Assembly: GCA_027049035.1 (NCBI GenBank)
Contig: JALTVI010000115.1
Span: 33,024 to 97,023 of the forward strand
Reading direction: 5' to 3'
Source of the DNA: Sulfurovum sp.
GTDB lineage: Bacteria > Campylobacterota > Campylobacteria > Campylobacterales > Sulfurovaceae
Length of the DNA: 64,000 nucleotides
Shown: positions 9,884-32,625 of the stretch, piece by piece
Position numbering within the stretch: the first letter of the stretch is position 1
Layout: every line of letters begins with the position of its first letter
Program-made: the position numbers and the translations under genes
The notes under the pieces: generated by a model
The model's input: only the letters and a program-made list of their open reading frames with translations
Databases searched by the model: none
Told to the model about the DNA's origin: nothing

Positions 9884-12800
9884 TTACTCTATCCCTTGAG
9901 CGAATCGAAGCCACTCTTTATTGGTGATTGTTAAATCTGCTTTTGCTACATCATCCGCCTCTTTAAATCTTTGCACTAGCATCAACCCTTTTCGTGCGAT
10001 ATTATATGCACCGTTGGCATCCGCATCTTTTGGCAATGAATTGTCACTTTTTCTACTATCAAAAAACTCTCCGCTGCTATTTTTTACAGGAGATAGCAAG
10101 TAATCATCACCTGTTTTACTGCTCGAATTTCGCATTTGCAACATCAGCTTGAAAAGATAGTGCAGCTTTTTGAAAAACTCGACACTATCTTGCATAAGTA
10201 TATATGCTTGTAAATTTTCTGTTTGTCCGTTAAAAAGCTCTTTAAACGCTTTGGTTAAATCGATAGTTTCGTCATCCCATTGGTTATTTTTAGAAGGGTT
10301 TCTAAAAGTTCTTATACGCTCGCCAAAACTGCATAGCGTCCACTCGGTTCGTGTCCCTTCAGCTTTTCGATGAAAATCGTTATAATCAAAACTAAACTCA
10401 AAATAATCCTCTTGTTTGTTATAATTTATCGATTTAAATTTGCTAAAAAATTCCCTTGATTTTTCTTTGTTGTAGTATTTTGCATCAAAGAGGTTTACAA
10501 ATCCGGTGGTTGGGTCTATTTTAGAGGTATTCCAAGCCGGCACATAAAATAAAATACCATTTTGTTTGCCCATCTTTTCAAAGCTAATAAATTTATTGGT
10601 TAGCTGCAAAGCTTTAAGCGCACCGCCAAGTTCAGTAGGCTCTTTTTTCTTATCGACCAGATAATTAAGCTTATCTATAAGCATTTTCTCAAACTTTTGA
10701 TACACTTGTTTTTCTACCTTAAAACGCCCTCTTTTGAAGCCAAAATTTAAATCTTCTAACACTACGATAGCATTATGCTCTACTATCAAAGTTGCAATTT
10801 TATGGATAACATGGCTCATATAGCCCTCTTTGAGCTCTTTGATTCTCTCGATACTTTCCCAATTAAGACGGGCTTCTTCTCTCTCTTTCTCTTTTGCATC
10901 AAGCTTTTGATGATAATCTACTTTGTGCTTTTTGCCGTTATAGCTGTTTACTATAGTATTAAGCGAATATTGTTCTACTATTCTTCCTTTGCCGTCTATT
11001 AGCGCTAGATAAAGCAGATGCCTCTCGCCCCTATCGATACCTATGATTTTTATATCATCCGTATGCTCTTTTATTTTTTGACGGATAAGATTATTATGCT
11101 CTTTATTCGAGAGATTCGAGGCTTTAAAATTTAGCGTGATTGGCACATGAAATTGGAATTTATCAAGCGCAAAACGTCTATCTTTAATAATCGGATAATT
11201 AAATTTATCTTTTAATTCCTTTGCATGGTGCCCCTCTTTCCAAGTTTTCTCACCATATTCGATTGAGCGTTTACGATAGAAAATTTCCGCTTCTCCGTTG
11301 AGCTTATAAACTACATCTTTTAAATTTGCATCATCAAACACCATACGCCAATAAATCGTATGAAGATTTGGCGTTCCTTTGCTATATGGCGAAAAGTCTT
11401 TATTGTAAATCTGAAATAAGTAGAGTTTACCTTCATCAACAAACTGTTCTATCACTTGTGCATCGATATTTTTAAAAGCTATTTTATATCCTTGAAGCTC
11501 TACTTCTTTATAAAATTCACTTATATCTTGATACTTTTTAGTATCTGTAAAATCAAACTCAAATTCTCGCCAATCCGGGTGTTTTTTAATCGATGCTTTA
11601 AAAAAGTCAATGAGATTGTGGCAATCATCAAGATTAAACGTTTCTCCTTTTTTGTGCGTGCCCTCTTTATATTTAGCCAAAAGGGATTCCGAAGGGGCAA
11701 ACTCGTCTATCCTGCGTTTTGAAAAAAATACCTTTGGCAGCATTTTATTTGGACCGGGCAAAAGCTTATATTCAATTTTCCGGTATACGTTATGCGTACC
11801 GCCCTCTTTGATATTTTGAAAAATTTTATTATGCTTTTTATCCATGATACCAAGATAAAAAAGACCGTCTTTCTCAAAAAGAACACCAAGATTATCTCTT
11901 TCTTTATTAACATCCCATCCGTCGAGCAGTGTGCTGTTTTCAAAATTCAATTTAAACTTTTCTTTCGAATAAGGCTTTTTAGTCAAAAAATTTCGAACCT
12001 TGTTAAATAGCGGAATCACCAGGCTTAACGCCTCGTAATAAATATCAAAATAAGCATAAAAAGCGATATCTTTTTCAAGTTCATCTTTGACATAAAGAGG
12101 CTTTAAAAAGTGCTGCAAATTTAATAGCGATTGAAGAAGTGCTTTGATTTTATCTTTATTTTCTCGATCATTATTCCAAGCTTCATAAGCACTCTCTATT
12201 TCAACTCTTAAATCTCTAGCTTCATCGTTTCCATAAGTGCCAAACTCTTTAAAATAATCAAAAAGCGATATCTCTTCTCCGTATTCTTTGAGCGCCTCCT
12301 CTATTTGTGCAATAGAAAAGTAGCTCTTTTTCTTATCAAAAAATTTTCTTCTTTTCTCGTCAATATCAGATGCGTTTGCTATACGGGGATTTTCTCTTAA
12401 ATGATGCTCCCACAAGGCATCTTTAATTGTAGAATAGTTCCCAAAAATTGCTTGAGAAATATCGGTAAGAGATTTGTCGTTTTTGATATACACGGTGTTT
12501 AAATCATATTCATTAGACTCTTGAAAAAGCTTATCAAACTTTTCTAATAAGTTTACCTCCCCGTCGCAACACTTAAAGCGTAAAATATTTGCATCATAAT
12601 ACGCCGCAATTGCCTCGCTCATCTCCTGAGTATCTTCAAAAGATTCAGGAAGCCAAGAGAGAGCTTCCCTATCGCTCAGAATTTGTTTATAAAGTGGTTT
12701 CATATTCGGTAAATCTCGTTTTGATAGTCCATTTTTTCTATGTAGATTTATCTTTTCATTGAGACCTTGAACCTTTGTGCCATCATCCAAGACAATTCCG

Positions 12801-13528
12801 CCTATGATGGCGTTATAGATATCAATATGCGTTTGACTCATAAGATATTGATAGTAATCTAAAGAGAATACATCTTCTACCGTTGCACCTTTTAAGGCAT
12901 CTTGCGTGTTAAGTTCTTTTTTAGCATCTTCTATAATTTTCGAATAGCGCTCTTTTATAAGTTCAAAAAGCCTTTTATTTTGTAAAAAAACAGGCAAATT
13001 CTCATGCACTACTCTATATGCAATTGCCGTATGTTTAGCTTCATTACTATAGATGTTTTTTCTATTTTCATGAAAACCGGTTAAATATGTAGTAAATTTC
13101 TGGAAGTTTTTTATGATATTCTTATCTTCCGAAGTAACTTCCGGATGCTCCCAATTTGGCAAAACTTTAGTAAGAAGCTCTTTTTTAAATAGATATTTCC
13201 AATTTGGATGCTCCTCAAATGCTTTGCGCATCTGCTTTCGCATTTTCGTTTGAATTTTTTCAAAAACTTTTTCATCTCGAGCAGAATCAAAAAATAATCG
13301 TTCATAACATCGCAACCCTTTGAGCCTAACACTACTTAAAGCTTCAGAGATAAAATCCTTATGGTAAAAATCGATTATCTTTTTTAATCTTTCATACTCT
13401 TGAGCCCTTTGCTCATCCTCTTTAATCAAGCCTTTTGCCTCGATATGCTCCAATGTTTTGCCAATTGGTTTTAACTCGAAACGCAATGTCTTTTGCACTG
13501 AAAATTGATTGGTCAACTGTAAATGCAT
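9884..13528 (-). CDS. cas12a: Type V-A CRISPR effector nuclease Cas12a (Cpf1)
   Basis: This crRNA-guided DNA nuclease has 1214 residues, at the short end of the family (about 1200-1300). The RuvC residues are visible: D832 (IGIDRGERH), E925 (VVLEDLNFGFKRGRFKVEKQ) and the DADANGAY aspartates at 1168/1170. The Nuc-domain arginine is R1133 (LQMRNS). PAM-interacting and wedge segments (KMLPKVFFSKRR near 595-606; SKGTPNLHTIYWR near 716-728) and the pre-crRNA processing segment (about 764-794, with HH and DKFQFH) are conserved. It should process its own array without tracrRNA. It is the first gene of the cas operon, 106 bp after a WYL regulator gene and just behind an operator-like repeat cluster. 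Confidence 0.98.
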   Translation of the reverse strand: MHLQLTNQFSVQKTLRFELKPIGKTLEHIEAKGLIKEDEQRAQEYERLKKIIDFYHKDFISEALSSVRLKGLRCYERLFFDSARDEKVFEKIQTKMRKQMRKAFEEHPNWKYLFKKELLTKVLPNWEHPEVTSEDKNIIKNFQKFTTYLTGFHENRKNIYSNEAKHTAIAYRVVHENLPVFLQNKRLFELIKERYSKIIEDAKKELNTQDALKGATVEDVFSLDYYQYLMSQTHIDIYNAIIGGIVLDDGTKVQGLNEKINLHRKNGLSKRDLPNMKPLYKQILSDREALSWLPESFEDTQEMSEAIAAYYDANILRFKCCDGEVNLLEKFDKLFQESNEYDLNTVYIKNDKSLTDISQAIFGNYSTIKDALWEHHLRENPRIANASDIDEKRRKFFDKKKSYFSIAQIEEALKEYGEEISLFDYFKEFGTYGNDEARDLRVEIESAYEAWNNDRENKDKIKALLQSLLNLQHFLKPLYVKDELEKDIAFYAYFDIYYEALSLVIPLFNKVRNFLTKKPYSKEKFKLNFENSTLLDGWDVNKERDNLGVLFEKDGLFYLGIMDKKHNKIFQNIKEGGTHNVYRKIEYKLLPGPNKMLPKVFFSKRRIDEFAPSESLLAKYKEGTHKKGETFNLDDCHNLIDFFKASIKKHPDWREFEFDFTDTKKYQDISEFYKEVELQGYKIAFKNIDAQVIEQFVDEGKLYLFQIYNKDFSPYSKGTPNLHTIYWRMVFDDANLKDVVYKLNGEAEIFYRKRSIEYGEKTWKEGHHAKELKDKFNYPIIKDRRFALDKFQFHVPITLNFKASNLSNKEHNNLIRQKIKEHTDDIKIIGIDRGERHLLYLALIDGKGRIVEQYSLNTIVNSYNGKKHKVDYHQKLDAKEKEREEARLNWESIERIKELKEGYMSHVIHKIATLIVEHNAIVVLEDLNFGFKRGRFKVEKQVYQKFEKMLIDKLNYLVDKKKEPTELGGALKALQLTNKFISFEKMGKQNGILFYVPAWNTSKIDPTTGFVNLFDAKYYNKEKSREFFSKFKSINYNKQEDYFEFSFDYNDFHRKAEGTRTEWTLCSFGERIRTFRNPSKNNQWDDETIDLTKAFKELFNGQTENLQAYILMQDSVEFFKKLHYLFKLMLQMRNSSSKTGDDYLLSPVKNSSGEFFDSRKSDNSLPKDADANGAYNIARKGLMLVQRFKEADDVAKADLTITNKEWLRFAQGIE

Positions 13529-14775: not shown

Positions 14776-14854
<79 letters not shown>

Positions 14855-14902: not shown

Positions 14903-16015
14903 TTATTTAGCGATGTCACCATCATTGTCACCACGCGTGGTGACACTCTTTTTGAAGGGGTCAAAGCTGCGCGAAATACGCAACTGCTCCCCCTCGATAT
15001 AGCGGGCGTATTTTTCAAGGATCATCTTGGTATTGGTGTGTCCGACGATCTGCGCGATCTCCACCACGCTCAACGCGCCCGATTTGAGCATTGCCGTGAT
15101 GAAGGTGTGTCGGGTGTTGTAGATCCTGCGGTATCTGATTCCCAGCTCTCTAAGCAGCCGATACCAAGGACCGTAGGGCGCGTGTCCTCGGATATTGTCG
15201 ATGCCGTAGAGGTGCTTTCCGTTGCGCGAAAAGAGCCAAATGCTCTTATCCAACCTTGCCTGATTGATCTGATCCTCGATATAGGGCTTAAGCACGTCAA
15301 AGAGCGGTACCCTTCGGATACTCCTTGCCGTTTTAGGCGTGCTTACGATCCCTTTGGATATACTTCTTTTGAGTTCAATGACATCCTCCCCGATGTCGCC
15401 GATCTGAAGCCCTATCACTTCACCGCTTCGCATACCGGTATAGAAACCGATCGCCAAAAAGTTTCGCAAGGTACGCGGTGCGGCGGCAAGGATCCGCTCC
15501 ACCTCTTGGGGCGTAAACGGCTCGATCTTCTCCTCGTCCTCATCGATGCTCTTTTTCTTGGGCTTGGAGATATGCACGAAGGGATTTTTCTCGATCACCT
15601 CTTCCTGGATGGCGATCTCGAAGATCCCCCGACAGGTGGAGATATAGCTACCGACGGTTTTGGGCTTTAGCTCCTTCATCGAAGCCACCCACGCGCGAAG
15701 CTCGGATACCTTGATCTCTCGAATATCCCGATTTTTAAAGAACGCCAGGATTTTGGCGACGCGCCCTTTGATCTCCCAATAGGTCGCCAAATCCTCTTTG
15801 GAAAGCAGATAGAGATCGGCAAACTTCTCTATCGGTTCCTCTTTTTGCCTCTGCTCCTTTTGCTTGAGATGCAGCTCAAGTGCCGGCAGAAATTCCCGTG
15901 TGACGCGTTCGCGGTTTTGCGGCGTATCTCGCAAACCGGTACTGCGCTGTTTCCAGCCGTCACGGGTTTTGTATTTGATTTGCAGGATTCCCCTGCGGGC
16001 ATAGATACTTGCCAT
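14903..16015 (-). CDS. int: Tyrosine-type site-specific integrase
   Basis: This 370-residue recombinase has an N-terminal arm-binding region, a core-binding domain (about 60-150) and a C-terminal catalytic domain. Probable catalytic residues are R196 (TGMRSGE), K228, R302 (YNTRHTF, with Tyr at the usual first His of box II), H326 (VGHTN) and Y336 (LEKYARYI). It sits 50 bp from the tRNA-fMet 3' end and points toward it, the normal layout for tRNA-targeting elements. Its last codons contain arm-type sites. It should catalyse integration and, with Xis, excision. Confidence 0.95.
   Translation of the reverse strand: MASIYARRGILQIKYKTRDGWKQRSTGLRDTPQNRERVTREFLPALELHLKQKEQRQKEEPIEKFADLYLLSKEDLATYWEIKGRVAKILAFFKNRDIREIKVSELRAWVASMKELKPKTVGSYISTCRGIFEIAIQEEVIEKNPFVHISKPKKKSIDEDEEKIEPFTPQEVERILAAAPRTLRNFLAIGFYTGMRSGEVIGLQIGDIGEDVIELKRSISKGIVSTPKTARSIRRVPLFDVLKPYIEDQINQARLDKSIWLFSRNGKHLYGIDNIRGHAPYGPWYRLLRELGIRYRRIYNTRHTFITAMLKSGALSVVEIAQIVGHTNTKMILEKYARYIEGEQLRISRSFDPFKKSVTTRGDNDGDIAK
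14914..14945. repeat. Putative integrase arm-type sites (left)
   Basis: TGTCACC at 14914-14920 is followed by a perfect 20-nt palindrome TGTCACCACGCGTGGTGACA at 14926-14945. The same GTGGTGACA unit recurs near the right ends at 32492-32500 and 33841-33849, each about 40 bp inside the att core. Such repeats flanking a core are typical integrase arm sites. Confidence 0.6.
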
Positions 16016-16062: not shown

Positions 16063-16287
16063 CTACCAATCTTTCATCTTCATCAGACTCATCGCCTGAT
16101 TGTGCTCTTTGCTGCTTTGCAGCAGCCACGCTTCCAGCTCTTCAAGGTTAAAGAGCATATGCCCGATATAGGGGTTTTTGACATAGTGCCTCCCCTCCTC
16201 CCAAATATTCTCTTTGATCATCTTTCGCGCGGTCTGTTCCGAAATCGCAATGTAATTGGTCAATTGTCCGATTTTCACCCATTTCAT
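16063..16287 (-). CDS. Excisionase-like HTH protein
   Basis: A 74-residue MerR/AlpA-like winged helix protein (LTNYIAISEQTARKMIKEN recognition region; LEELEAWL tail) placed between integrase and relaxase. Size and position fit a recombination directionality factor, which would bias the integrase toward excision. Its start overlaps the relaxase stop by four bases (ATGA), so it is made with the relaxase. Confidence 0.75.
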   Translation of the reverse strand: MKWVKIGQLTNYIAISEQTARKMIKENIWEEGRHYVKNPYIGHMLFNLEELEAWLLQSSKEHNQAMSLMKMKDW

Positions 16288-17918
16288 CGCCCCATTCCTT
16301 TCTTGGATTTTTGATTCACAGTTTTGTAGTCATTTCGCCACAGTTTTGTAGTCATATCTTTTTTGGTACCTTCTTTTTGGTGTTTGGCGGCATCGCGGAT
16401 CTCCTGCATTGTCTTATCCTTGAAGTTGATCTTTAGATCGTACTTCTCGGTAACGGCAAGCACCTTTTGTTTAAAGGCAAGATCCCCGGATATATCAAGA
16501 TGATTGCCATACTTGGCAATGCTCATTTCAAGCATCTCTTTGATAGCAAGTTCGTTGCTGTCAATAGTGATGCGTAACCGGTCGCCTTTGTCGATGATCT
16601 TTCCGTGATCGCCGATGCGATAGACAACCAAGCCCTGCTTGGTGATCTGCGGATCCTTGGTAATGAAGATCTTGTGATCGGTCTTACCCAGGATCGCTTT
16701 TTCATCCGGCTCCAGTTTTACTTTGGTCTTACGCAACGCTGCCAAAGCTTTACTGTCGCCCTCTAAGGCTTTTTGGATCAAAAACTCTTTGTAAGAGATT
16801 TGATTTGTCTTTTTGTGGATCTCATCTCGTTTGGCTTTGTAAGCCTTGGAGAGTTCTTGATACTCTTTTTTGCGGTTGGCAAAAAGAGATTGGTAAATGT
16901 TCCGCTTCGCCTTGGGTGTCAAAAAGAGATCCCGCTTGGTTTCGCTAATGAGGCGTTCATACTTGGCTTTGATCGCCTCTTTTGCCTGAGTGTTCTCCTG
17001 CTTTGCTTCGGATAGGAGCTGCTTCTTGGCGGCTCTTAGCTCATCGCTTCGCTTTTTATACTGTTCCCATAGGTCGTGCTTTGGCATCCCAAATTCCCGT
17101 TTGGGCTTGGTATCGATGCTTTTAAACTCCAAAGGCTTTCCAAAACGCTTCTCAAGCTGGGCTTTGGAGAGGCTTCGATGGATACTGCTACTTTTTACAA
17201 AGAGTTTTCGGCTCTTGTGGGAAATGACCACACCGTTACCCCGCGGCTTGAGTTCCAGGTTGGATTCTGCAAGCACCTTTTGCAAATCCTCAAAGGTGGC
17301 TTTTTCGTCCTTGATGACCTTTTGCAGATCCTCAAGCACCTCCTCCTTGATCCAGGTGGAGAGGTTCTTTACGCCGCTGTGGATCTCTGCATCTTTGCCT
17401 TTGCTTTTGCCGGTGATGTGGCGGCGGTTTTTGTCGATGTGGTTGTCGTATTTGAGCTGATAACGCTCCTCGATCTCCTCGGCGGCTTTTTGCAGCTTCA
17501 AGATACTTTTGATCGGATCGATCCGGTTGTGGGTCTTGGGGCAAATTCTGCTTACAGCGATATGGATATGGAAATTATTGGTGTTGTCGTGCGCTACGCT
17601 AAAGCGGTAGTGATCCTCCATCCCTATCGATCTAAGCAGATCCTCTTCGATTTGGCGTAATACTTCGCCGGAGGGCACCTTCTCATCTTCCTGGAAAGAG
17701 ATGATCAAGTGCATATTTTTATCGCTCTTGGTGCGCTGATTGAGTTTGTTGTGCTGCTCGATAAAGCGGATGTTCTGCTCGATGCTCTCAAACGGGCAGT
17801 TGGTCATATGCATGTAGTTCTCAGCCACTTTCTCTCCTTCGTGTTCTTTGTCTCGTATATAATCCGCCAGTCCGCCGAAGCTGCCGGTACCTTTGGAGGG
17901 CACCATCTTGACGATCAT
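16284..17918 (-). CDS. MOBP-family relaxase (TraI/VirD2-like)
   Basis: This 544-residue protein should nick oriT and pilot the transferred strand. The N-terminal relaxase domain (about 1-190) has candidate catalytic Tyr20 (LADYIRDKE) and the metal-binding motif HDNTNNFHIHI with H110, H117 and H119. The remainder is charged and helical, with no helicase or primase motif visible. The family is that of RP4 TraI, which matches the TraJ-like gene upstream (four-base overlap) and the RP4-like oriT at 25.0 kb. Its last codons contain a tandem pair of a sequence also found after traK. Confidence 0.92.
   Translation of the reverse strand: MIVKMVPSKGTGSFGGLADYIRDKEHEGEKVAENYMHMTNCPFESIEQNIRFIEQHNKLNQRTKSDKNMHLIISFQEDEKVPSGEVLRQIEEDLLRSIGMEDHYRFSVAHDNTNNFHIHIAVSRICPKTHNRIDPIKSILKLQKAAEEIEERYQLKYDNHIDKNRRHITGKSKGKDAEIHSGVKNLSTWIKEEVLEDLQKVIKDEKATFEDLQKVLAESNLELKPRGNGVVISHKSRKLFVKSSSIHRSLSKAQLEKRFGKPLEFKSIDTKPKREFGMPKHDLWEQYKKRSDELRAAKKQLLSEAKQENTQAKEAIKAKYERLISETKRDLFLTPKAKRNIYQSLFANRKKEYQELSKAYKAKRDEIHKKTNQISYKEFLIQKALEGDSKALAALRKTKVKLEPDEKAILGKTDHKIFITKDPQITKQGLVVYRIGDHGKIIDKGDRLRITIDSNELAIKEMLEMSIAKYGNHLDISGDLAFKQKVLAVTEKYDLKINFKDKTMQEIRDAAKHQKEGTKKDMTTKLWRNDYKTVNQKSKKGMGR
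16313..16357. repeat. Tandem CACAGTTTTGTAGTCAT repeats in the relaxase 3' end
   Basis: Two copies of CACAGTTTTGTAGTCAT, 22 bp apart, lie in the last codons of the relaxase gene. A third, with the longer match GATTCACAGTTTTGTAGTCAT, is at 25635. The role is unknown; they may be scars of recombination or rearrangement within the element. Confidence 0.6.
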
Positions 17919-18280
17919 AAAAGCCGCTCCGCGATGGCAAGCAGGCGGGCTTGTCGCGCCTCGATCTTTTCAATGATCTGCTGCACATCTTCATAGCTAT
18001 GCTTTCCAAGCTTCGCTTGCGCTTTGTACTCTTCGTTTTGGGTGAGCCATAGCTTAAAAAGACCTCCCAGCCGACCCAGATCGGCGCGGGCTTTGATCAG
18101 CTCGTCCAAAGCGTGCTGATCCACCACGGAGGTCAAGGGATACGCCAAAGCAAGATCTCGAAGATAACTTGCCGCACTCACCCCGCAACTCTTCGCGCGA
18201 TTTTGCAAAAGAGCCTTTTCAGATGCATCCACACGGACTTTGATCTGTAGATCTCTTTTTCGCTTTTCCGATCTGCTCAT
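17915..18280 (-). CDS. traJ: TraJ-like relaxosome accessory protein
   Basis: This 121-residue basic protein begins with a ribbon-helix-helix-like segment (about 10-45) and has the segment VVDQHALDELIKARADLGRLGGLFKLWLTQNE, which closely follows RP4 TraJ. TraJ binds the oriT inverted repeat and recruits the relaxase. Here it directly precedes and overlaps the relaxase gene, but the oriT itself lies 7 kb away, next to the TraK-like gene. The symbol is used by resemblance. Confidence 0.82.
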   Translation of the reverse strand: MSRSEKRKRDLQIKVRVDASEKALLQNRAKSCGVSAASYLRDLALAYPLTSVVDQHALDELIKARADLGRLGGLFKLWLTQNEEYKAQAKLGKHSYEDVQQIIEKIEARQARLLAIAERLL

Positions 18281-19041
18281 GCGGCGGCTTCCTTTTTGAT
18301 GCTGCTTTCAATCACCTCAAATGCCGGTTTGAGGATCTTTTCGACATAGATTTCACTCTCATCATAGATCTGTAGCAGCGTGGAGAGCTGTCCGATTCTG
18401 GCATTGTCATCCGCGTCAAACGCCTCATCAAGCGCATCTTCAAGGATCTTTTTCTCCACATCATCAAAAGCGATCTCATAGATGCTCTTGGCATTTTGTC
18501 GGCTCAAGTCGATCACATCGCTCTCTGTCAAAATCAGATACTCCGCATCGAGGAAGGCTTGGAAAAAATCTCCATACTGAAACTGCAAACGCTTAGGGTT
18601 TCTTACTCTTGAAAGAGCGAAGATCACCGGCACATCAAAGCCCTTGATCATCTCATAGGTCTTTTCGGCGTTTTTAAGATCTTGGTATCCTCCACTCATC
18701 GGAATGATAAAGAGATCGATCTTGCGGTAAAGCCGTGTCTTTTTCAATCCCTCAATGATGATGGTGGTGGTTTTGTTACCGCCCACATCGATGACGATGT
18801 TTTTATCCTTGGATACCAGGATCGTATCTTTCAATACTTCATCCACATCCGTACCGTCTCCGATCTCCACCTGGGATGATTTGATCTTGGAGTTTGAGAA
18901 TGTTTCACTATCTTTGTTTTCATCATCAAACTCAATAAGCTGCACCTCTTGCTTTTTTGCCAAAAACGAAGCTGCTGCTACCTGGAACGCCACGGTGCTC
19001 TTGCTAGCACCTCCTTTTGTGTTTACTACTGCGATTGTCAT
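18277..19041 (-). CDS. ParA/MinD-like partition ATPase
   Basis: A 254-residue P-loop ATPase with the deviant Walker A NTKGGASKST at residues 7-16 and Walker B-like IVIDVGG near 80-86. It may stabilise an excised circular form or position the relaxosome. No ParB-like partner is obvious. It overlaps traJ by four bases and is itself overlapped at its start by a 59-codon ORF. Placement in the mobilization operon recalls ParA-like proteins of IncP elements. Confidence 0.85.
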   Translation of the reverse strand: MTIAVVNTKGGASKSTVAFQVAAASFLAKKQEVQLIEFDDENKDSETFSNSKIKSSQVEIGDGTDVDEVLKDTILVSKDKNIVIDVGGNKTTTIIIEGLKKTRLYRKIDLFIIPMSGGYQDLKNAEKTYEMIKGFDVPVIFALSRVRNPKRLQFQYGDFFQAFLDAEYLILTESDVIDLSRQNAKSIYEIAFDDVEKKILEDALDEAFDADDNARIGQLSTLLQIYDESEIYVEKILKPAFEVIESSIKKEAAA

Positions 19042-19219: not shown

Positions 19220-20545
19220 TTACGCTCCTTTGATCCCACCGGTGCTACTACCGCCGCTTTTGATTTGGCTCATGTCAAAGCCGTATCGATCTTTATTGGA
19301 TGAGGACGATTCGCTACCGCCTTTGGATCCCGATGTGCTACTACCTGTTGCAATATTGACGGCTCCTTTGGCAGTGTTTGCAGCGACTTTGAATGTTCCG
19401 CCAACCGCTTTAGCCGCCATTGCCCCGCTACCTTGTCCGACAGTTGAGGAGGCACCGCCGGTAAAACTGCGAATGCCGCCAGCCGTCATACCTGCCGCCG
19501 CTCCAATAGCTGCACCTCCGGTAGCTTTAAGAGTGGTTTTGATAGCAGTTCCTTTGCCTCCACCCGAATTCCCACCGGCTGCCGCCGCCTCTTTGACGGC
19601 ACTATAGCCTGCCGAAGCGCCTTGTTGTGCTCCGCGTGATATGTTTCGAATCGAATTGGAAACAAAAGCATGCGCCATTTGAACGCCCACGCTGTTATCA
19701 CCGCCGCCGTGACCGTTAAAGTAGCTGTCCACAAATCCGTTTGCACCGAATGCCACCGTAACCATCATAAGCGAGACGACAACCAGCGCAACATAATCGA
19801 AAAGGTTACTCCAGGGATCTATCATCATTTGATTGACAATGGTAAATGTGACCGAAATGATCAAAAGCTGCATAAACCATTTCGCACCCCATCGTATAAC
19901 ATTGACGACACTGTTGATTGCCCAAGGTCGCGTATATTCAAAACTGCCGAAACCGATCCAAAATACGCCGACATAGAGGCTAAAGACAAAAAAAGCATAG
20001 GTCATCAGCGCAATACCCACCAAAATGGCAACTACAATAGTCTCGATGGCACCGATGGCAACGAGAGTCAGCGATTCGGGGATGTGTTTCCAGCCGTTGA
20101 TTTGTATCTTTGTCCAAATGTACCACCACATATGCGATATGTTTTCAACCACCTTGTCTAAGCTTGATACATTGCCATGCGTAGCTCTGTTTGCCAACTC
20201 CGTAAAGCCGTTAAATACGCTTTTCATCCAACCGGGATGATCGAAGATCGCCAAAAAGAGACCGTAAAAGAGCATGAACCGAATCAATGCCGCCATCACC
20301 GCACCCAACTCCATCTCTTGACGCAAAAACATAAATCCGAAAGTAATGACCATTTGCATCAAGCCCAGCGTCACAAAAAGCCACTTTGCAGGTCCCTTGA
20401 TCGGATCGTAAAAGCTGCTGATCATTTGATCGAACTTATCCATCGTGTACGATGGGAAGTTATTTAAGCTGCCTGCAAAAAGATCGGGTGAAAAAACAAG
20501 CAAAAGCAGTAACGCTACGATCACAAATCTCCATTTTTTATTCAT
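19220..20545 (-). CDS. trbL: TrbL/VirB6-like mating-pore membrane protein
   Basis: From the ATG at 20545 (SD AAGGAAG) the protein has about 441 residues: a signal-like hydrophobic N-terminus, five or six further membrane segments up to about residue 265, then a long Gly/Ala/Ser-rich low-complexity tail ending GGSSTGGIKGA. This is the layout of TrbL/VirB6 family inner-membrane T4SS subunits. The 20 extra residues in the ORF track overlap the previous gene and lack an SD. The genes before it are a TrbK-like lipoprotein and TrbJ, the RP4 gene order. The other T4SS genes are absent. Confidence 0.82.
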   Translation of the reverse strand: MNKKWRFVIVALLLLLVFSPDLFAGSLNNFPSYTMDKFDQMISSFYDPIKGPAKWLFVTLGLMQMVITFGFMFLRQEMELGAVMAALIRFMLFYGLFLAIFDHPGWMKSVFNGFTELANRATHGNVSSLDKVVENISHMWWYIWTKIQINGWKHIPESLTLVAIGAIETIVVAILVGIALMTYAFFVFSLYVGVFWIGFGSFEYTRPWAINSVVNVIRWGAKWFMQLLIISVTFTIVNQMMIDPWSNLFDYVALVVVSLMMVTVAFGANGFVDSYFNGHGGGDNSVGVQMAHAFVSNSIRNISRGAQQGASAGYSAVKEAAAAGGNSGGGKGTAIKTTLKATGGAAIGAAAGMTAGGIRSFTGGASSTVGQGSGAMAAKAVGGTFKVAANTAKGAVNIATGSSTSGSKGGSESSSSNKDRYGFDMSQIKSGGSSTGGIKGA

Positions 20546-20726
20546 TATGCTTCCTTTGGCGGTTCCACTTGCGGTTAAGCAAAAAGAGTTTGACGATACT
20601 AACACCGACCATCACCGCACCGAATATCTTTTGATTGGCTTCTCCATCTATTGCCAGATCGAAACCGAATACGACAAATGCGGCATATACCGCCGCTTCG
20701 ATGTAAACTTCAACGGCACTTCTCAT
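20538..20726 (-). CDS. Small membrane protein between trbK-like and trbL
   Basis: A 62-residue protein with two hydrophobic segments (about 8-26 and 35-50) and a basic C-terminus (NRKWNRQRKHNE). Its stop overlaps the trbL start and its start overlaps the lipoprotein gene stop by four bases, so it is a coupled member of the trb-like operon. RP4 has no exact counterpart at this place. Pilin-like VirB2 is possible on size alone, but there is no evidence for it. Confidence 0.6.
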   Translation of the reverse strand: MRSAVEVYIEAAVYAAFVVFGFDLAIDGEANQKIFGAVMVGVSIVKLFLLNRKWNRQRKHNE

Positions 20727-20893
20727 TTTTGGTACCTGATCGGCGATCTATCGTCCGCGCTCGTATCTTTCGGTTTGTGTGCAAAATTTTCAAAGCTTTG
20801 ATCGTTTGCACCGTGATTAGACTCTTTTTTGTCGCTGCATCCCGTCATACCGATAACCAATGCAAGGCTCATGCCGATTACAAATCTTCTCAT
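20723..20893 (-). CDS. TrbK-like small lipoprotein
   Basis: The proper start is the ATG at 20893, behind GGGGGCG, giving 56 residues: signal peptide MRRFVIGMSLALVIG, lipobox MTGC, then a charged mature part. The longer ORF reads through the trbJ stop region. In RP4 a small lipoprotein (TrbK, entry exclusion) sits exactly between trbJ and trbL, as here. Its last residues, DDRSPIRYQK, repeat the C-terminus of TrbJ next door. Function as an exclusion protein is inferred from position and lipidation only. Confidence 0.65.
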   Translation of the reverse strand: MRRFVIGMSLALVIGMTGCSDKKESNHGANDQSFENFAHKPKDTSADDRSPIRYQK

Positions 20894-20903
20894 CGTCGCC
20901 CCC

Positions 20904-21713
20904 TTATCGTTGATACCTAATCGGTGATCTATCGTCGCTATGCGTATCGTCGGGTTCTTTCGCAAAACTCTCTACCGATGCGCGTCCCATCTGATCTTCT
21001 TGGTTTTGTGCCGCGATATACTCCGCTTGCAGGTTGGCTTGGGTCATAATCGTTTTTTGCAACTTTTGCAGTGACTGCGTTTGATGATAGGCTAACTGGT
21101 TTGCAACGGCAATAGCCGCTTCGGTACCCTTGGCACTGTTCATCGCCTGACGTAAACGCCCCATAAACAGTTGATCGTTGTGCAAGTCGCGCTCCTGTAT
21201 CCCAAGCGTTTTAAGAGCATTCAAAGCTGTATCTCGCGTACTTTGATAGATCGTTTTGTACGCTGCCTGAAAGCTCTGTGCCGTTGCGCCGTTTTGGGTG
21301 AGAAACTGATCATATCCGCGAAATATTTGGTTAAACCGCTGATCGATATTGGCGGCGGTGTAGCTTATTGCCTGCCCTTGCTCCATTGATCGTTTCATCT
21401 GCTGTGCCATATTGAGGAAGTTTTGCTTCATGTTCTCCGGCAGCCGTCCGATGTTTTGCACCATCATCCGCAAGCCCATGATCTTGCGCTGCCAATCCTG
21501 CCATTGGTTCTGCCATTGCAGCAGTTGGGTATAGTATTGCTGGAGTTGTTTGGTGTAGGAGGCTGCACGATCTCCAATATCCGCCGCCCATTGTGCGTCT
21601 TGAGTGATTTCGAGGCTTCCACCAAAGCCGCCAACGCTACCGGCATTTGCCGAAGTTGTGAAAAACATTGCTGCCGCCGCTGCCGAAATTCCCAGTTTTT
21701 TGATTGTTTTCAT
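20904..21713 (-). CDS. trbJ: TrbJ/VirB5-like T4SS protein
   Basis: A 269-residue secreted protein: signal peptide of about 24 residues ending SANAG, then helical Gln-rich repeats (QLQQYYTQLLQWQNQWQDWQRK) typical of TrbJ/VirB5, which form the minor pilus tip. The C-terminus ends DDRSPIRYQR. It heads the block trbJ, lipoprotein, small membrane protein, trbL. No other T4SS structural or energy genes are present, so it must act with a helper machine or in exclusion. Confidence 0.82.
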   Translation of the reverse strand: MKTIKKLGISAAAAAMFFTTSANAGSVGGFGGSLEITQDAQWAADIGDRAASYTKQLQQYYTQLLQWQNQWQDWQRKIMGLRMMVQNIGRLPENMKQNFLNMAQQMKRSMEQGQAISYTAANIDQRFNQIFRGYDQFLTQNGATAQSFQAAYKTIYQSTRDTALNALKTLGIQERDLHNDQLFMGRLRQAMNSAKGTEAAIAVANQLAYHQTQSLQKLQKTIMTQANLQAEYIAAQNQEDQMGRASVESFAKEPDDTHSDDRSPIRYQR

Positions 21714-21746: not shown

Positions 21747-22025
21747 TCAAAGCTCCAGCGGAGCCAAACTCTCTGCCGTCTGCTTGATCACCCGAAGTTT
21801 CATCTCCGCCCTTTCCAATGCGATCAAAAGTGCATCGGCACCGTTGACCGGTGCAGGCTGAGTTCTCATGAGGTGATCCGCCAACCGTGACCGCGCCGCA
21901 TCAAGCTCTTGATCGGCATCGATCATCTCCTGTACTTCTGCCTCCTCCATCTGGAGAATGGAGCAAAACGCCGCCGTTTCGCCCTGCATCCACTCCAAAA
22001 AGTCATTTGCCTTGATTAGCTTCAT
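21747..22025 (-). CDS. Hypothetical protein, 92 aa
   Basis: A small acidic, helical cytoplasmic protein (many E, A, L; no signal or membrane segment). Its start overlaps the stop of the replisome-organizer gene by four bases, and trbJ follows after 33 bp, so it is part of the long minus-strand operon. No family recognised. Confidence 0.65.
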   Translation of the reverse strand: MKLIKANDFLEWMQGETAAFCSILQMEEAEVQEMIDADQELDAARSRLADHLMRTQPAPVNGADALLIALERAEMKLRVIKQTAESLAPLEL

Positions 22026-22879
22026 TTACTTGCCTCCTTGTGTTTATGTTGGATCCATTGGTAAATATCCTTTTTGGCGTAGCTATAATCATCCGTACCA
22101 TCATCAAAAAAGAGATGCAGGTGGCTACCGACATCTACTACGCGGTTGATTTGTTTATTTCCCAGTGAATACCCTACTAACTGTGTATAGTCAAACTCTT
22201 GGATTTTCCGTTTCGTCTCCTCCTGTTGTTTGTTTTGTAGATACTCTTGCTTCCATTTTGTAAAAGCCTCCAGTGCATCTTCGTTCCCCTCACGAAATTT
22301 CTTACGCATCGTTGATCGATATGCCGGTGGATTTTTTGCGGTTGAACAATACTCTTCAAGCCATCGCTGAAAAAGTGGGTCGCTTTCTGTCTCTGTGTCT
22401 GTCTCTGTCTCTATCTCTATCTCTGTCTCTGTCTCTAGCGTCACACTTTCATCACCGCTTCGTAACCGGTGCGTCACACCTGCGTCACAATGTGACGATG
22501 GAAGCTTTTTCTTACCGCTTCTCAAGCGTCTCATTCGTACTGCCGAAGCGGTTTCAGTACCGATATTTTCGGCTGCATAAGGCAAGAAGTATTTACCTTG
22601 CTCCATCCCCTCAAGCATTCCGTGATTGGAAGCATATTCCAGGACAAATCTCACCGTTTTGGCATCTTCATTGATCTCTAATGCGATCTCTTCCTCTATC
22701 GTTTCAAAAATGCCTTGATACACGATGATCCCACTTGTAGGTATGCTGTATGTGAGAATTTTGATATACGCCAAAACATAGGTATCGCCGCCAGGTATGC
22801 TTTGCAATTTGCGTATGCGTAGATCGTCGAAGAAATCCCGCTTGAACTTGAGCCAGTAATAGCGTTTCTCTTTTGCCAT
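22022..22879 (-). CDS. Phage-type replisome organizer (DnaD-like N-terminal domain)
   Basis: This 285-residue protein begins YYWLKFKRDFFDDLRIRKLQSIPGGDTYVLAYIKIL, the signature of the phage replisome organizer N-terminal domain, which binds the replication origin. The middle (about 145-168) is an E-T alternating tract encoded by a TCTCTG-type simple repeat. The C-terminal part (FQRWLEEYCSTAKNPPAYRSTMRKKFREGNEDAL) resembles a DnaD-like helicase-loader region. It probably allows limited replication of the excised element. Start overlaps the HTH gene. Confidence 0.75.
   Translation of the reverse strand: MAKEKRYYWLKFKRDFFDDLRIRKLQSIPGGDTYVLAYIKILTYSIPTSGIIVYQGIFETIEEEIALEINEDAKTVRFVLEYASNHGMLEGMEQGKYFLPYAAENIGTETASAVRMRRLRSGKKKLPSSHCDAGVTHRLRSGDESVTLETETEIEIETETDTETESDPLFQRWLEEYCSTAKNPPAYRSTMRKKFREGNEDALEAFTKWKQEYLQNKQQEETKRKIQEFDYTQLVGYSLGNKQINRVVDVGSHLHLFFDDGTDDYSYAKKDIYQWIQHKHKEASK
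22384..22438. repeat. TCTGTC/TCTCTG simple-sequence repeat in the replisome organizer gene
   Basis: About nine imperfect copies of a TCTCTG/TCTCTA hexamer encode an ETETEIEIETET tract. Changes in hexamer number would keep frame and vary linker length by two residues per unit. Confidence 0.75.
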
Positions 22880-24996: not shown

Positions 24997-25046
24997 AAAT
25001 GCCCACCTGTCGCTTGCGGCGGTGGACTTTTTACCCATCCTGCCTT
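24997..25046 (+). other. oriT: IncP/RP4-like origin of transfer (oriT)
   Basis: An imperfect inverted repeat (CCACC-T-GTCGC / GCGGC-GGTGG, loop TT, 25003-25025) is followed 11 bp later by CCATCCTGCC, matching the RP4-type nick consensus YATCCTG^Y. The predicted nick is between 25042 and 25043 on the plus strand. The order inverted repeat, short AT-rich spacer, nick site is that of RP4/RK2 oriT. The TraK-like gene starts 130 bp downstream, as in RP4. Confidence 0.78.
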
Positions 25047-25634: not shown

Positions 25635-25657
25635 GATTCACAGTTTTGTAGTCATAT
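25635..25657. repeat. Third copy of GATTCACAGTTTTGTAGTCAT
   Basis: This copy matches the sequence in the relaxase 3' end at 16313 over 21 bp and the second copy at 16339 over 19 bp. It follows the traK stop codon directly. Confidence 0.7.
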
Positions 25658-27487: not shown

Positions 27488-28389
27488 TGCACTCCTCTTT
27501 TGACTTCTCCGATCAAGCCCGACTCTTCGATATCGCCTTGGCGATTTTAGAAGATTACGGTATCACCGCCTGGTCACTGGGCGGCGGTACGGCACTTTCG
27601 ATGCTCTACTACCGACACCGGCTCTCATATGACATCGATATCTTTATCGAATCGTTTGGAGAGATCCAGCGTATTCTTGATCATCAAGAGGAAATCGCCG
27701 CCAACCTAGGTATCGATCGCAAAGCCATCCTCTCTTCTCCTACCGGCGTGACGTTTGTGCTTGACGATGAAGCACACGGCTTGAAACTCGATTTTGTCTA
27801 TTCTCCGGCGCTTACAAGCAAGCCTTTTGTGCAACGCGATGTGTTTAATCACACTGACATTACGGTGCAAACACCGCTGGAGATCGTCGCCAAAAAGCTC
27901 AAATTCCGTGAAAAAGCCACGATCCGGGACTTTGTAGACTACGCTATTGCCGAAGAGAAAGACGGGCTTTTGAGTAAGCTCAAAACGGAAAATGTAGTCG
28001 ATATCGATCGCTACTTCGACTTGATCGAAAAATTCGATTCAATCTCCAAAACCCTTTTTGACGAAGAGTTGCGCTGGCTCATCCCAAATGCCGACATTTC
28101 CAAAGAGACATTCGCCGATACGATTTACGGGCTAATGAAGCCAAAAGGCAAAATGATCCGTGTAGCCGTCGATCCATCCGGGGAAGTCGTCGCTTTCGAT
28201 GAGTTTATCCCCGTCTACAAAGAGCATTACGTTCCGATCGGTGAGCTTGAAATCTACACGATCCCAAACACGGGGATGGGCTACAAGGAGCTGATGAGGC
28301 TGGATAAAGCTAAGATTGTGGAGATGACAATCCAGGAAAACGATTCTCAATTTGGCGTTGAAACTCCATATAACGGCGATTCCGGATAA
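27487..28389 (+). CDS. AbiEii/MNT-type nucleotidyltransferase (probable toxin)
   Basis: This 300-residue protein has the nucleotidyltransferase signature SLGGGTALSMLYYRHRLSYDIDIFI (GG, S and paired DxD near residues 31-55) and downstream KLDFVYSP, as in AbiEii/AbiGii toxins, which transfer nucleotides onto tRNA or other targets. The C-terminal 100 residues are an added domain (VAVDPSGEVVAFDEFIPVYKEHYVP) of unknown role. It is coupled to the 101-residue gene before it. Likely toxin or abortive infection effector. Confidence 0.75.
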   Translation: MHSSFDFSDQARLFDIALAILEDYGITAWSLGGGTALSMLYYRHRLSYDIDIFIESFGEIQRILDHQEEIAANLGIDRKAILSSPTGVTFVLDDEAHGLKLDFVYSPALTSKPFVQRDVFNHTDITVQTPLEIVAKKLKFREKATIRDFVDYAIAEEKDGLLSKLKTENVVDIDRYFDLIEKFDSISKTLFDEELRWLIPNADISKETFADTIYGLMKPKGKMIRVAVDPSGEVVAFDEFIPVYKEHYVPIGELEIYTIPNTGMGYKELMRLDKAKIVEMTIQENDSQFGVETPYNGDSG

Positions 28390-28399
28390 AGGAAGTATT

Positions 28400-28810
28400 T
28401 TGGGAAAAGAGCGGATGACGCGTTCTGAGAATATGCGTAGAATTAAAGCAAAAGACACTAAAATAGAACGTATACTCGCCAAAGCGATGTGGAAAGAGGG
28501 ACTTCGCTACCGAAAAAATTGCAAAGATGTGTTCGGAAAGCCGGATTTTTGCTTTAAAGGCAAGAAGATAGCGATCTTCTGCGATAGTGAATTTTGGCAC
28601 GGCAAGAAGTTTTTAGAGGGCGAAAGATTTAAAACGAATACTGACTTTTGGGAAGAGAAAATAAAACGCAATATTAAGCGGGACAAAGAAGTGAATGAAC
28701 GATTGAGAAGTGAAGGTTGGACGGTGCTTAGGTTTTGGGGAAAGGATATTGAAAAAAACGTAGAAAATTGTTTGAAAGAAATCAAATCTAGGATTATAAA
28801 AAATGGATAA
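28400..28810 (+). CDS. vsr: Vsr-type (very short patch) endonuclease
   Basis: I favour the TTG at 28400 (MGKERMTRSENMRRIKAKDT), six bases after an AGGA core; ATG 28415 is possible, while the track start at 28352 lies inside the previous gene. The protein matches Vsr: RSENMRRIKAKDTKIE at the N-terminus, GKPDFCFKGKKIAIFCDSEFWHG with the catalytic Asp and the WH pair, and a C-terminal EGWTVLRFWGKDI. In Vsr-GHKL-Dcm sets this nuclease is thought to act as the restriction or repair enzyme. It overlaps the GHKL gene by eight bases. Confidence 0.88.
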   Translation: MGKERMTRSENMRRIKAKDTKIERILAKAMWKEGLRYRKNCKDVFGKPDFCFKGKKIAIFCDSEFWHGKKFLEGERFKTNTDFWEEKIKRNIKRDKEVNERLRSEGWTVLRFWGKDIEKNVENCLKEIKSRIIKNG

Positions 28811-30806
28811 TGACCAAATACTTCAATTAGCGTTTCATGGCAAAATCATAGATCACCTTGGTGTACAAATGTATCAAAGCCCCATTGCATCAATCGCGGA
28901 ACTTGTGTCTAATGCATGGGATGCTAATGCAGAAAAAGTTGAAATAACACTTCCTGAAGTCATGGGTGGTGATGCCGCAATTATTGTCAAAGATGACGGT
29001 GACGGTATGACATTAGATGATTGCCAAAATAAATATTTAAATATAGGATACAATAGGAGAGAACATTCCGATACGAGTCGAGATAGACCTGTAATGGGCA
29101 GAAAGGGTATTGGAAAATTTGCCGGATTTGGTATAGCAAATAAAATAAAAATAGACACAATTAGTAAGCAAACCGGTGAAAGAACAGTATTTGTATTAGA
29201 TCTTGATCAAATTCGGGAAGGAGATACCTATGTCAACACATCTCCGCTACAATTGATACCTGAACTCATTGAAGAACCTGATGAGGAAAGGAAAAAAGAT
29301 CACGGTACAGAAATTACGTTACTTGACCTTACCTTTGAACGGAAACCCAGTAAAGACATATTTATAAGAGGATTATCACGAAGATTTGCTATAAACTCAA
29401 CTGCTGATAATTTTCAAGTATTTGTTAATGGTACCGAAGTTAAAGAAGAAGATGATTCTTCTAGAATAGAGTTTTCTTTTCCACGAGACTACAAAAACGA
29501 TGAAAAACCGGATGGGTTAATTATAAAAGATGGATATGGGATTGAGACAATAAACGGGCAAGAAATAAGTTGGAAAATAAATTTTTACAAAGATACCATT
29601 CAAGAACAAGACCTACAGGGTATATCTGTTTTTGCACATAAAAAGCTAGCTCAAACTCCTTTTATGTTCAACCTTTCAGGAGGTCTACCTTCACAAACCG
29701 GACCTGAATATTTATCAGGTAAAGTAATTGCGGACTTTGTTGATGAATTGTCAACAGATGTTATATCACCGGAACGCCAAAGACTTAATTGGGAGCACGG
29801 TGAATTAAAACCTCTTGAAACCTGGGGGCAGGAAAAGATAAAAGAGCTTTTAAAAATATGGAAAAAAAGACATCAAGAGGAAAGAGAAAAGATCATCAAG
29901 GAAAAAATCGGTAATTTCGGGCAAAGACTTTCTAAATTACCACCACATGAGCAAAAAGTTATAGAAACTGCTTTAAAAAAATTGGCTGCATTACCAAAAT
30001 TGACGACAGAGCAATTTACTGAAATGGGTGAAGCGATATTAATCGCATGGGAAGGTGGTCGTCTAAAAGCTCTAATAACCGAGATGGCTGATGTTCAAGA
30101 TATGACCGAGGAACACTTGCTAAATATTCTTATTGAAGCAAATGTATTGACTTCATTACATACTGCCGAGGCAGTTAAAACAAAGTTAGAAGCAATAGAA
30201 GGATTAAGGCAGCGTATTGAAAGTAGAGAATTAGAAAATGCTGTTAGGGACTATATAGCCAAAAATCCTTGGTTGATCTCTCCAGAATGGGAGACATTTG
30301 TTGTAGAAAAATCTTTAAAACATATAATTGAAAAAGCCCTAAAAGAAAGTGGCATTGAAGAAGAAGAAGACTGGAAAAAGCGTGTAGATCTTATATTGAG
30401 TAGTGGAAATTCTCTTTTGGTTTTGGAGTTCATGAGACCGGGTCTAAAGATCGATAGAGATCATATGGAAAGATTTGAATACTACATAGATACGATAAAA
30501 GATGCAATTTCAAGTCAGACAGGAGTAATTTTTAAGAGTGAACAAGTTTTTGGATATTTAATAGCAGATAAGATTGAAAACTCAAAAGGTGCTTTAAAAA
30601 TAAAAATACAGAAACTTTCAAAAAGTAATATGTATGTTATGGACTGGGAAAGCTTGCTTGAAAAAGCAGAAGCACAATGGCAAGAATTCTTAGATATATT
30701 AATCGAGAGATCTCCTGATGATCATAGAATTCAAGCCCTAAAAGAAGATGAGTCAAAAGATGATGCTATTGAAGAGACTTCTTTATCATCTCCGCCTGCT
30801 TCTTAA
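28803..30806 (+). CDS. GHKL (MutL/Hsp90-like) ATPase with C-terminal nuclease-like domain
   Basis: The N-terminal ATPase has all Bergerat motifs: N37 (AELVSNAWDAN), DDGDGM at 64-69 and GRKGIGKFAG at 99-108. The C-terminal third (about 480-640) begins with NPWLISPEWETF and contains RVDLILSSGNSLLVLEFMRPG (D529, E542), an arrangement like a PD-(D/E)xK core but with Met for the usual Lys. GHKL ATPases beside vsr and a C5-methyltransferase form a known restriction-type system (BbrUII/HgiDII group). The gene ends convergently, 41 bp inside the methyltransferase gene. Confidence 0.85.
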   Translation: MDNDQILQLAFHGKIIDHLGVQMYQSPIASIAELVSNAWDANAEKVEITLPEVMGGDAAIIVKDDGDGMTLDDCQNKYLNIGYNRREHSDTSRDRPVMGRKGIGKFAGFGIANKIKIDTISKQTGERTVFVLDLDQIREGDTYVNTSPLQLIPELIEEPDEERKKDHGTEITLLDLTFERKPSKDIFIRGLSRRFAINSTADNFQVFVNGTEVKEEDDSSRIEFSFPRDYKNDEKPDGLIIKDGYGIETINGQEISWKINFYKDTIQEQDLQGISVFAHKKLAQTPFMFNLSGGLPSQTGPEYLSGKVIADFVDELSTDVISPERQRLNWEHGELKPLETWGQEKIKELLKIWKKRHQEEREKIIKEKIGNFGQRLSKLPPHEQKVIETALKKLAALPKLTTEQFTEMGEAILIAWEGGRLKALITEMADVQDMTEEHLLNILIEANVLTSLHTAEAVKTKLEAIEGLRQRIESRELENAVRDYIAKNPWLISPEWETFVVEKSLKHIIEKALKESGIEEEEDWKKRVDLILSSGNSLLVLEFMRPGLKIDRDHMERFEYYIDTIKDAISSQTGVIFKSEQVFGYLIADKIENSKGALKIKIQKLSKSNMYVMDWESLLEKAEAQWQEFLDILIERSPDDHRIQALKEDESKDDAIEETSLSSPPAS

Positions 30807-31791
30807 TATAAGCCGGTGGCAGAGCATTACCGATCATCAGAGCGATTTTATCTCGTGCGATATCGGTAGGAAATTTGTAATCTTTCGGAAAAGTCTGTAA
30901 AAGTGCGGCTTCACGCAGTGTAATCGCCCTATTCTCTTCAGGGTGCAAGAACCTACCTTTAGAAGGGTTGGTGCAGCCGCCGGTGATCGTCGGAGCCACA
31001 TCATCCCATTTCATGCGACCGTAGACATCACGAAAGCCGTTTGGATATTTCAAGTGACAAGGGAGCCAATACTCTCTAGGTAAATCTTTTCTGCTCCCCC
31101 CGTTTTTCGGAATAAGCGAAATCATTTTTTGCACTTTTTCGGTTCGTTTCACGGGATAGTCATGAAGCGGATCATCACCGGTACCCGGTGTATGTATCTC
31201 AGATAGCGCATCTCTTACTGTCTTTTTACTGTTTGATTTCGGAGCAAACGGGATCTTTTTTTCTCTGCCGGTCATTAATATCATGCGTTTTCTTCTTTGA
31301 GGTACGCCGTATTCCGATATATCATGTATTTGCACGGTTTCACTATCAACATGATATCCGAGTTCCTTGAGACGGGTAAGAACTTTTTTAATCCTGGGAT
31401 CTTTGGCTAATCCCGGAACATTTTCGATGAGGATCGCTTTCGGAAGCAATTCTTCCGTGAGTCTCAATATTTGAAACACCAAATCATTTCTTTCATCATC
31501 AACAGATGAAGCGGCATTCTTGGTGCGAAGGGATGAAAAGCCTTGACAAGGAGGACAGCCGGCAAGGAGATCCAATTCTCCTTTTTCGATTTTCAAAGTA
31601 TTAAAAATCTCTTTAGCATTGAGATCTTGTATAGGTTTATTCCACAATCGACTTTCCGGATGATTCATACGGTAAGCCCTAGAGACCGTAGGATCAATTT
31701 CAACCGCTCCGACAACATTGAAGCCCGCTTGTTTAAGTCCTTCGGTTAATCCTCCGGCACCGCAAAACAAATCAATAGCTTTAGGCTTCAT
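30766..31791 (-). CDS. dcm: DNA (cytosine-5) methyltransferase
   Basis: A 341-residue enzyme (start ATG 31791; the track start is an upstream TTG). Motif I is DLFCGAGGLTEGL, the catalytic cysteine is C82 in GCPPCQGFSS, motif VI is IENVPGL, motif VIII QRRKRMILM and motif X IGNALPP. The variable region between about 215 and 270 sets specificity. It protects host DNA against the Vsr/GHKL system, is convergent with and overlaps the GHKL gene, and has the palindrome TTGTCAATTTGACAA 69 bp before its start, the same as at the antitoxin promoters. Confidence 0.94.
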   Translation of the reverse strand: MKPKAIDLFCGAGGLTEGLKQAGFNVVGAVEIDPTVSRAYRMNHPESRLWNKPIQDLNAKEIFNTLKIEKGELDLLAGCPPCQGFSSLRTKNAASSVDDERNDLVFQILRLTEELLPKAILIENVPGLAKDPRIKKVLTRLKELGYHVDSETVQIHDISEYGVPQRRKRMILMTGREKKIPFAPKSNSKKTVRDALSEIHTPGTGDDPLHDYPVKRTEKVQKMISLIPKNGGSRKDLPREYWLPCHLKYPNGFRDVYGRMKWDDVAPTITGGCTNPSKGRFLHPEENRAITLREAALLQTFPKDYKFPTDIARDKIALMIGNALPPAYIKKQAEMIKKSLQ

Positions 31792-31859
31792 GCTCTCATC
31801 CGCAAATCTTTTCTTTTTTATGCAATTATACCCGTAATAGCTTGTTTTGGTATTAATAA

Positions 31860-31874
31860 TTGTCAATTTGACAA
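31860..31874. promoter_or_regulatory. TTGTCAATTTGACAA palindrome upstream of dcm
   Basis: This perfect 15-nt palindrome is identical to those overlapping the -35 boxes of the two antitoxin genes at 32424 and 33773. It suggests that dcm transcription is sensed or controlled by the adjacent HTH antitoxin-like protein. Confidence 0.6.
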
Positions 31875-32394: not shown

Positions 32395-32401
32395 AGTTGT
32401 T

Positions 32402-32587: not shown

Positions 32588-32625
32588 CAACTTCCAGAGC
32601 TTAACACCACCAATTCAAAACTACA

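Follow-up and report, generated by a model that had tools for sequence, protein, structure and literature searches.

A tRNA-Met-integrated mobilizable element in Sulfurovum with a trbJ-lipoprotein-trbL cassette and matched C-terminal tails that may act in exclusion

Why would a mobilizable element keep a few genes of a mating pore and none of the others? The question is posed by positions 19220-21713 of the window, by which we mean the whole 64,000-nucleotide stretch of Sulfurovum sp. DNA analysed here, where an initial annotation saw trbJ, a lipoprotein gene and trbL in RP4 order and proposed that selection had retained them in a new satellite, for either entry exclusion or replacement of helper subunits. 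Examining this block computationally, we found that it recurs in other elements, is under purifying selection, diverges like a cassette, and encodes a lipoprotein whose C-terminal tail matches that of the adjacent TrbJ.

The block belongs to a tyrosine-recombinase element in a 2.49-Mb, 99.8% complete genome (G000), inserted at the 3' end of a tRNA-Met gene (14776-14852). The att site at that end (14818-14854, plus strand) is repeated (repeat D2) at 32551-32587 (plus), the likely right end of the element, and again at 33899-33935 (plus), the right end of a 1.35-kb tandem add-on. On the minus strand follow, in order, a tyrosine integrase (14903-16015; Pfam Phage_integrase, 6e-14), an HTH excisionase-like protein (16063-16287; weak HTH_17 match, 99-100% conserved in L015 and L018), a MOBP relaxase of the TraI/MobA(P) type (16284-17918; NCBIfam TraI_MobP_relax, 364 bits, cut-off 250), a NikA-like relaxosome protein (17915-18280; Pfam NikA-like, 3e-20), a ParA/StbB-like ATPase (18277-19041; Pfam and NCBIfam searches), TrbL, a small two-TM protein, the lipoprotein, TrbJ, a conserved 92-aa ORF 5' of trbJ (21747-22025; 39-81% identity in relatives) and a replication-organiser-like protein (22022-22879; Pfam Phage_rep_org_N, 7e-18). 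A candidate IncP-type oriT, consisting of a hairpin CCACCTGTCGCTTGCGGCGGTGG and then CCATCCTGCC (25006-25046, plus), matches sister satellites L024 and L026 in layout, its nic core by itself being at chance frequency; the parA-trbL gap was rejected as oriT, showing no conservation among relatives. With a site-specific integrase and att repeats, its own MOBP relaxase and NikA-like relaxosome protein, and TrbJ, an exclusion-type small protein and TrbL as sole pore genes, the element is a tRNA-Met-integrated integrative mobilizable element (IME).

The right part of the element carries AbiEii-like, Vsr, restriction-type and C5-methyltransferase genes, among which a Vsr-type endonuclease, a HATPase restriction-type protein and a C5 methyltransferase form a defence-like cargo module (28352-31866). 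The add-on (32588-33935), bounded by tRNA-Met-end repeats, carries a gene of the AbiEii type together with a near-duplicate of the adjacent ORF at 31969-32430. Three sites in the element (25635-25655, 16313-16333 and 16335-16355) carry a 21-nt repeat, GATTCACAGTTTTGTAGTCAT or a variant of it, and a full-length Cas12a, the type V-A effector (9884-13528), adjoins the tRNA pair on the chromosomal side.

Within the block, all on the minus strand, trbJ (20904-21713) encodes a 269-aa VirB5, the pilus-tip/stalk protein, which scores 106.9 bits with NCBIfam TrbJ_Ti (cut-off 100.55) and matches plasmid TrbJs by tblastn at E about 1e-11 to 1e-13, while trbL (VirB6; 19220-20545, likely start 20545) encodes 441 aa that score 42.5 bits with Pfam PF04610 TrbL (cut-off 25.9) and fall below the cut-off of NCBIfam TrbL_P. 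Between them lies the gene, likely at 20723-20893, of a 56-aa lipoprotein (MRRFVIGMSLALVIGMTGC...) with an MTGC lipobox and the tail NFAHKPKDTSADDRSPIRYQK. Its lipobox, small size and place between trbJ/virB5 and trbL/virB6 are EexN/TrbK-type traits; having no family-model match, NF033894 (EexN) included, it is named Eex/TrbK-type here and not a family member, and the same-position lipoproteins of L028 and L030 match NF033894. Judged by these sequence features, it is a putative exclusion factor, thought to block unwanted DNA entry. The order TrbJ-lipoprotein-TrbL matches that of R751 and C. jejuni plasmids, and the RP4-order reading is borne out by TrbJ_Ti, tblastn, Pfam TrbL, lipobox and position, with the correction that a fourth gene, for a 62-aa two-TM protein (20538-20726), sits inside the block between the lipoprotein gene and trbL. 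By place, size and basic C-terminus, without a scored alignment, we liken it to small TM ORFs found between lipoprotein and trbL in L015, L017, L022, L024, L025 and L026 and after trbL in L028; most copies end in ANWxYxxRK, and none was found in three complete operons (L021, L027, L033). Homologues of trbB/C/D/E/F/G/I were found neither in the element (Pfam) nor in its relatives (tblastn), and the helper search of the host genome, made for TrbE with positive controls, found none. The annotated absence of other transfer genes thus stands for the pore and falls for mobilization, given the MOBP relaxase, the NikA-like protein and the candidate oriT.

Searching with TrbJ, we found matches in 13 of 397 sampled Campylobacteria genomes, and the survey of related elements that the initial annotation had called for recovered the same partial set, TrbJ plus TrbL, in ten elements from nine of the 397 (G000, G003, G074, G219 with two, G365, G388, G217, G176 and G123). 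Most of the ten have NikA, a relaxase or an integrase nearby, and trbB/C/D/E/F/G/I are absent from the stretch of up to 20 kb around each; contigs L016 and L017, the latter ending inside trbJ, are further cases. Complete trb operons occur in G250, G084 and G024, and TrbE was found at E < 1e-200 in five genomes, none of them among the nine with the partial set. Wherever the trbJ-flanking sequence of a satellite was inspected, a lipoprotein gene adjoined trbJ. No relaxase was seen near the block in the limited stretches of L022, L025 and L028, so that, as in GIsul2, the block can persist where the relaxase does not.

Comparing the window with its near relatives L015, L016 and L017 revealed divergence concentrated in the block: the relaxase is 97, 95 and 90% identical and ParA 89, 88 and 89%, against 34, 36 and 35% for TrbL, 37, 35 and 29% for the lipoprotein and 55 and 54% for TrbJ (L015 and L016). 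With relaxases at 90-97% and TrbL at about 35%, the block behaves, at the level of sequence, as a swapped specificity cassette. The TrbL C-terminus (KDR.GFD...SSTG.IKGA; 19220-19300 and relatives) is conserved across sister satellites in alignment despite the roughly 35% whole-protein identity.

Within this cassette, the 3' ends of trbJ (20903-20972, minus), coding for the tail SFAKEPDDTHSDDRSPIRYQR, and of the lipoprotein gene (20722-20791, minus), coding for a TrbJ-like tail, form a direct repeat (D4) with 70% identity, and the two proteins carry the tails DDRSPIRYQR and DDRSPIRYQK. Lipoproteins encoded between trbJ and trbL end like their own TrbJ, and the tails vary between elements: both proteins end in EKTNPNDDVPMP in L015 and in MQSDSRVPYGIGKNQNYQTDALKWK in C. 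jejuni, and the pairs are GEILDSTQYHYKY and GEILDSTKYNYKY in L028 and KKPIKGDEKDIKTW and KKPIKGDEKEIKTW in L029. Among plasmids examined later, the match appeared in those of Sphingobium, IncN, Proteus, IncI2, Brevundimonas, Bradyrhizobium and R751 (the IncP plasmid of this comparison), in mobilizable Xanthomonas and Pseudomonas plasmids, in Aeromonas and Photobacterium, in an unannotated Neisseria lipoprotein, and in R388 and pTiC58; it recurs in nearly all related plasmids checked. TrbJ and TrbK also match at the locus with the tails QMRTWTFRPSPADNY and QMRQWEFKPSPKDDY, which we take to be GIsul2 from its surrounding context. The match is weak in L016, L031, R388 and Photobacterium; pKS77 has two lipoprotein genes with the tail in the second only, and no lipoprotein was found between trbJ and trbL in L027 and L052. 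L031 also has, at about 17.3-18.05 kb and away from trbJ, a second Eex-like lipoprotein with the differing tail DAKKFDKF, which might target another pore. Scanning viral contigs with profile A4 gave four loci.

To quantify the match, we scored the last 25 residues of 34 pairs, revealing a mean of 51.1 for cognate pairs versus 16.7 for non-cognate pairs, with none of 100,000 permutations reaching the observed sum; the sample is non-random, its pairs having been collected by resemblance to TrbJ or EexN, and related pairs do not count as independent. The signal held for the 25 pairs examined after the idea had formed (z 15.6) and for the 22 from plasmids or other phyla (z 13.8). The C. jejuni tail formed part of the EexN query, and the listed non-Campylobacter matches mostly ended at or soon after the tail start. 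A TrbJ tail resembled its own lipoprotein more than that of its nearest TrbJ-body relative in 33 of 34 cases, and the cognate lipoprotein was the single best match in 25 of 34. L049 and L086 illustrate this: in the compared part their TrbJ bodies share 97% identity, while the tails differ and the lipoproteins follow the tails. No match signal appeared in two controls, upstream segments and TrbJ tails compared with TrbL C-termini. Tail similarity covaries with both the TrbJ body and TrbL, which partial Mantel tests did not separate. AlphaFold models were poor (pLDDT 55 for TrbJ and 48 for TrbL), the TrbJ tail being a disordered extension past the last helix in the low-confidence model; a PDB fold search gave nothing below E 0.001, and a TrbJ profile found no VirB5 among PDB sequences.

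Could the block, or its tails, have arisen without selection for function? That a complete conjugative element shed most of its pore genes and left the block as a neutral remnant might seem consistent with relative L015 (WFNP01000037), a decaying sister satellite with stops in the integrase, a broken parA and three in-frame TAG codons in trbJ, and with a relaxase, trbL and lipoprotein that are mostly intact. (TAG recoding in L015 was rejected, the int and parA genes having TAA, TGA and frameshift-like breaks.) Since this decay also strikes the integrase, it is decay of the whole element, and the same subset persists at low identity in many diverged elements with dN/dS (Nei-Gojobori) well below 1, at about 0.11-0.23 for trbJ and 0.11-0.24 for trbL, several pairs being near synonymous saturation. 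Together with the lack of a complete pore nearby, this argues for selection over decay, as the initial annotation had supposed; the remnant reading is largely contradicted and we hold it to be extremely improbable. The matching tails might likewise be the product of recurrent DNA duplication, or of gene conversion, among adjacent genes, with no functional meaning. Conversion does occur, as pairs that are codon-identical or nearly so attest (no codon of 23 differs in C. jejuni, one of 14 in L030). Against this as the general cause, codon choice at identical residues is near random in most pairs: across 32 aligned pairs, 335 identical residues have synonymous codons, and 148 of these differ in codon versus 169 expected under independence, which indicates that most matches are kept at the protein level. 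Excluding four of the most codon-similar pairs still left z 19.2. Moreover, eex lies kilobases away from virB5 in two IncX4-type plasmids (one typed IncX4, the other untyped with near-identical neighbours), where we determined the lipoprotein ends first (YKNQQQDAPVPQIN, DAPVPQIN, and FIQSQKDAPVPTFD, DAPVPTFD) and obtained the VirB5 ends afterwards (YKQQQMNAPIPTIQ, NAPIPTIQ, and FIKQQKEAEPLTFD, EAEPLTFD); the prediction held, so that adjacency is not the explanation, and we judge a meaningless match very unlikely.

If the cassette is functional, it may do only one of the two things first proposed for it. Under exclusion alone, the block would keep out conjugative plasmids or rival satellites, with TrbJ and TrbL needed in the recipient and no rebuilding of the helper pore; trbJ or trbK in a recipient guards against the RP4 pore (PMC11045733), and the presence of the lipoprotein gene beside trbJ in all satellites inspected at that place fits as well. 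TrbL, however, has no known recipient role, yet it is under purifying selection and ranks with the parts that differ most from one sister element to another, which leaves this reading unlikely. Under replacement alone, TrbJ and TrbL would change which recipients the helper pore reaches or how efficiently it works, and the lipoprotein would be a TrbJ-tail-related partner in assembly; VirB5 is located at the tip of the pilus, where it is believed to make contact with recipients (PMC12624023), and an assembly role would also fit tail sharing. Set against it, the gene at the same place in a studied plasmid encodes an exclusion factor dispensable for transfer (PMC8923210), making replacement alone quite unlikely in our estimation. 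The choice between exclusion and replacement thus probably resolves into both at once, since the exclusion lipoprotein bears a tail copy of the very pore protein kept beside it.

The reading that we favour, with moderate confidence, is that the IME has retained the trbJ-lipoprotein-trbL set as a cassette for exclusion identity, acting through a helper's IncP-like (MPF_T) pore. The element would travel via that pore, and we infer that satellite TrbJ (pilus tip) and TrbL (its inner-membrane base) would take the place of the helper copies, with the tail as recognition determinant. In a cell that holds the element, the lipoprotein would present its copy of the C-terminal TrbJ tail, which would compete with the tail of the donor's TrbJ or be taken for it, the reader probably being TrbL or the TrbJ pentamer, and a pore of matching identity would be kept from transferring DNA. 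Having its own tag, the satellite could enter cells that the helper's exclusion lipoprotein guards and still keep out a further copy of itself; the tail would then be an entry-exclusion tag kept with the pore base, and the reshaped helper pore would bear the satellite's exclusion identity. The broader proposition, which we rate as slightly better than evenly balanced, is that MPF_T entry exclusion works by mimicry, Eex/TrbK copying its own VirB5/TrbJ tail as a fast-changing identity tag and satellites bundling the tag, its mimic and the pore base into a single cassette that dresses the helper's pore.

Published work bears on this proposition in several ways. Exclusion requires the C-terminal region of TrbK in pKPC_UVA01 as in IncP, and IncP TrbK has no known partner in the donor (PMC8923210). 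Expression of trbJ or trbK shielded recipients against killing through the RP4 pore, an effect that R388 and R6K did not have (PMC11045733), and a tail common to TrbJ and TrbK would explain why either protects in RP4. R388 VirB5 was built on VirB6 from residue 32 to 229 (PMC9259494), the PDB chain having 229 residues, which suggests that the tail is ordered once the stalk is assembled; we infer that a recipient lipoprotein would imitate this tail towards the incoming pore. The pKPC_UVA01 TrbK also blocks IncP and IncN plasmids (PMC8923210), which is not what a strict tag code predicts. The tail match may reveal by what means conjugative plasmids recognise, and shut out, others of their own kind: it offers a concrete, easily testable candidate for the exclusion partner across the most studied plasmids (R388, R751, IncN and pTi), would make exclusion groups readable from sequence, and would account for satellites retaining just trbJ, trbL and the lipoprotein gene.

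How does the element compare with known systems? IMEs with TrbJ-TrbK-TrbL (GIsul2 and the IncP island) and the SGI1-like idea that such IMEs reshape a helper pore are already described (PMC5704250), so that calling this a new satellite was overstated as to kind and apt only for the Campylobacterota lineage. New here, with priority uncertain, are that lineage, the code of shared tails and the additional gene for a small membrane protein; the excerpts of open-licence PMC literature searched held no mention of matched VirB5/Eex tails. SGI1, with TraN, TraH and TraG, likewise swaps helper pore subunits and disables helper exclusion (PMC5704250), as is proposed for the window's element, and differs in its F-type pore and other subunits, no TraN, TraH or TraG being among the Pfam matches of the scanned window proteins. 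IncP TrbJ-TrbK-TrbL and IncN/IncW VirB5-Eex-VirB6 share the gene order and matched C-terminal tails, but belong to complete transfer systems. GIsul2 shares the trbJ-trbK-trbL gene set and matching TrbJ/TrbK tails; unlike the window's element, it has no relaxase of its own (PMC5704250) and has IncP-type proteins. The IncP island of Burkholderia glumae, an IME with a MobP relaxase, TraJ, TraK and TrbJ-TrbK-TrbL (PMC5704250), resembles our element in that it brings along a MOBP relaxase and a relaxosome protein, has no part of the pore but TrbJ, TrbL and a small protein with a putative exclusion role, and is likewise proposed to reshape the helper pore, whereas, judged by its description, the Sulfurovum element is set apart by its other phylum, its diverged proteins, its tRNA-Met integration, its ParA and its small two-TM protein.
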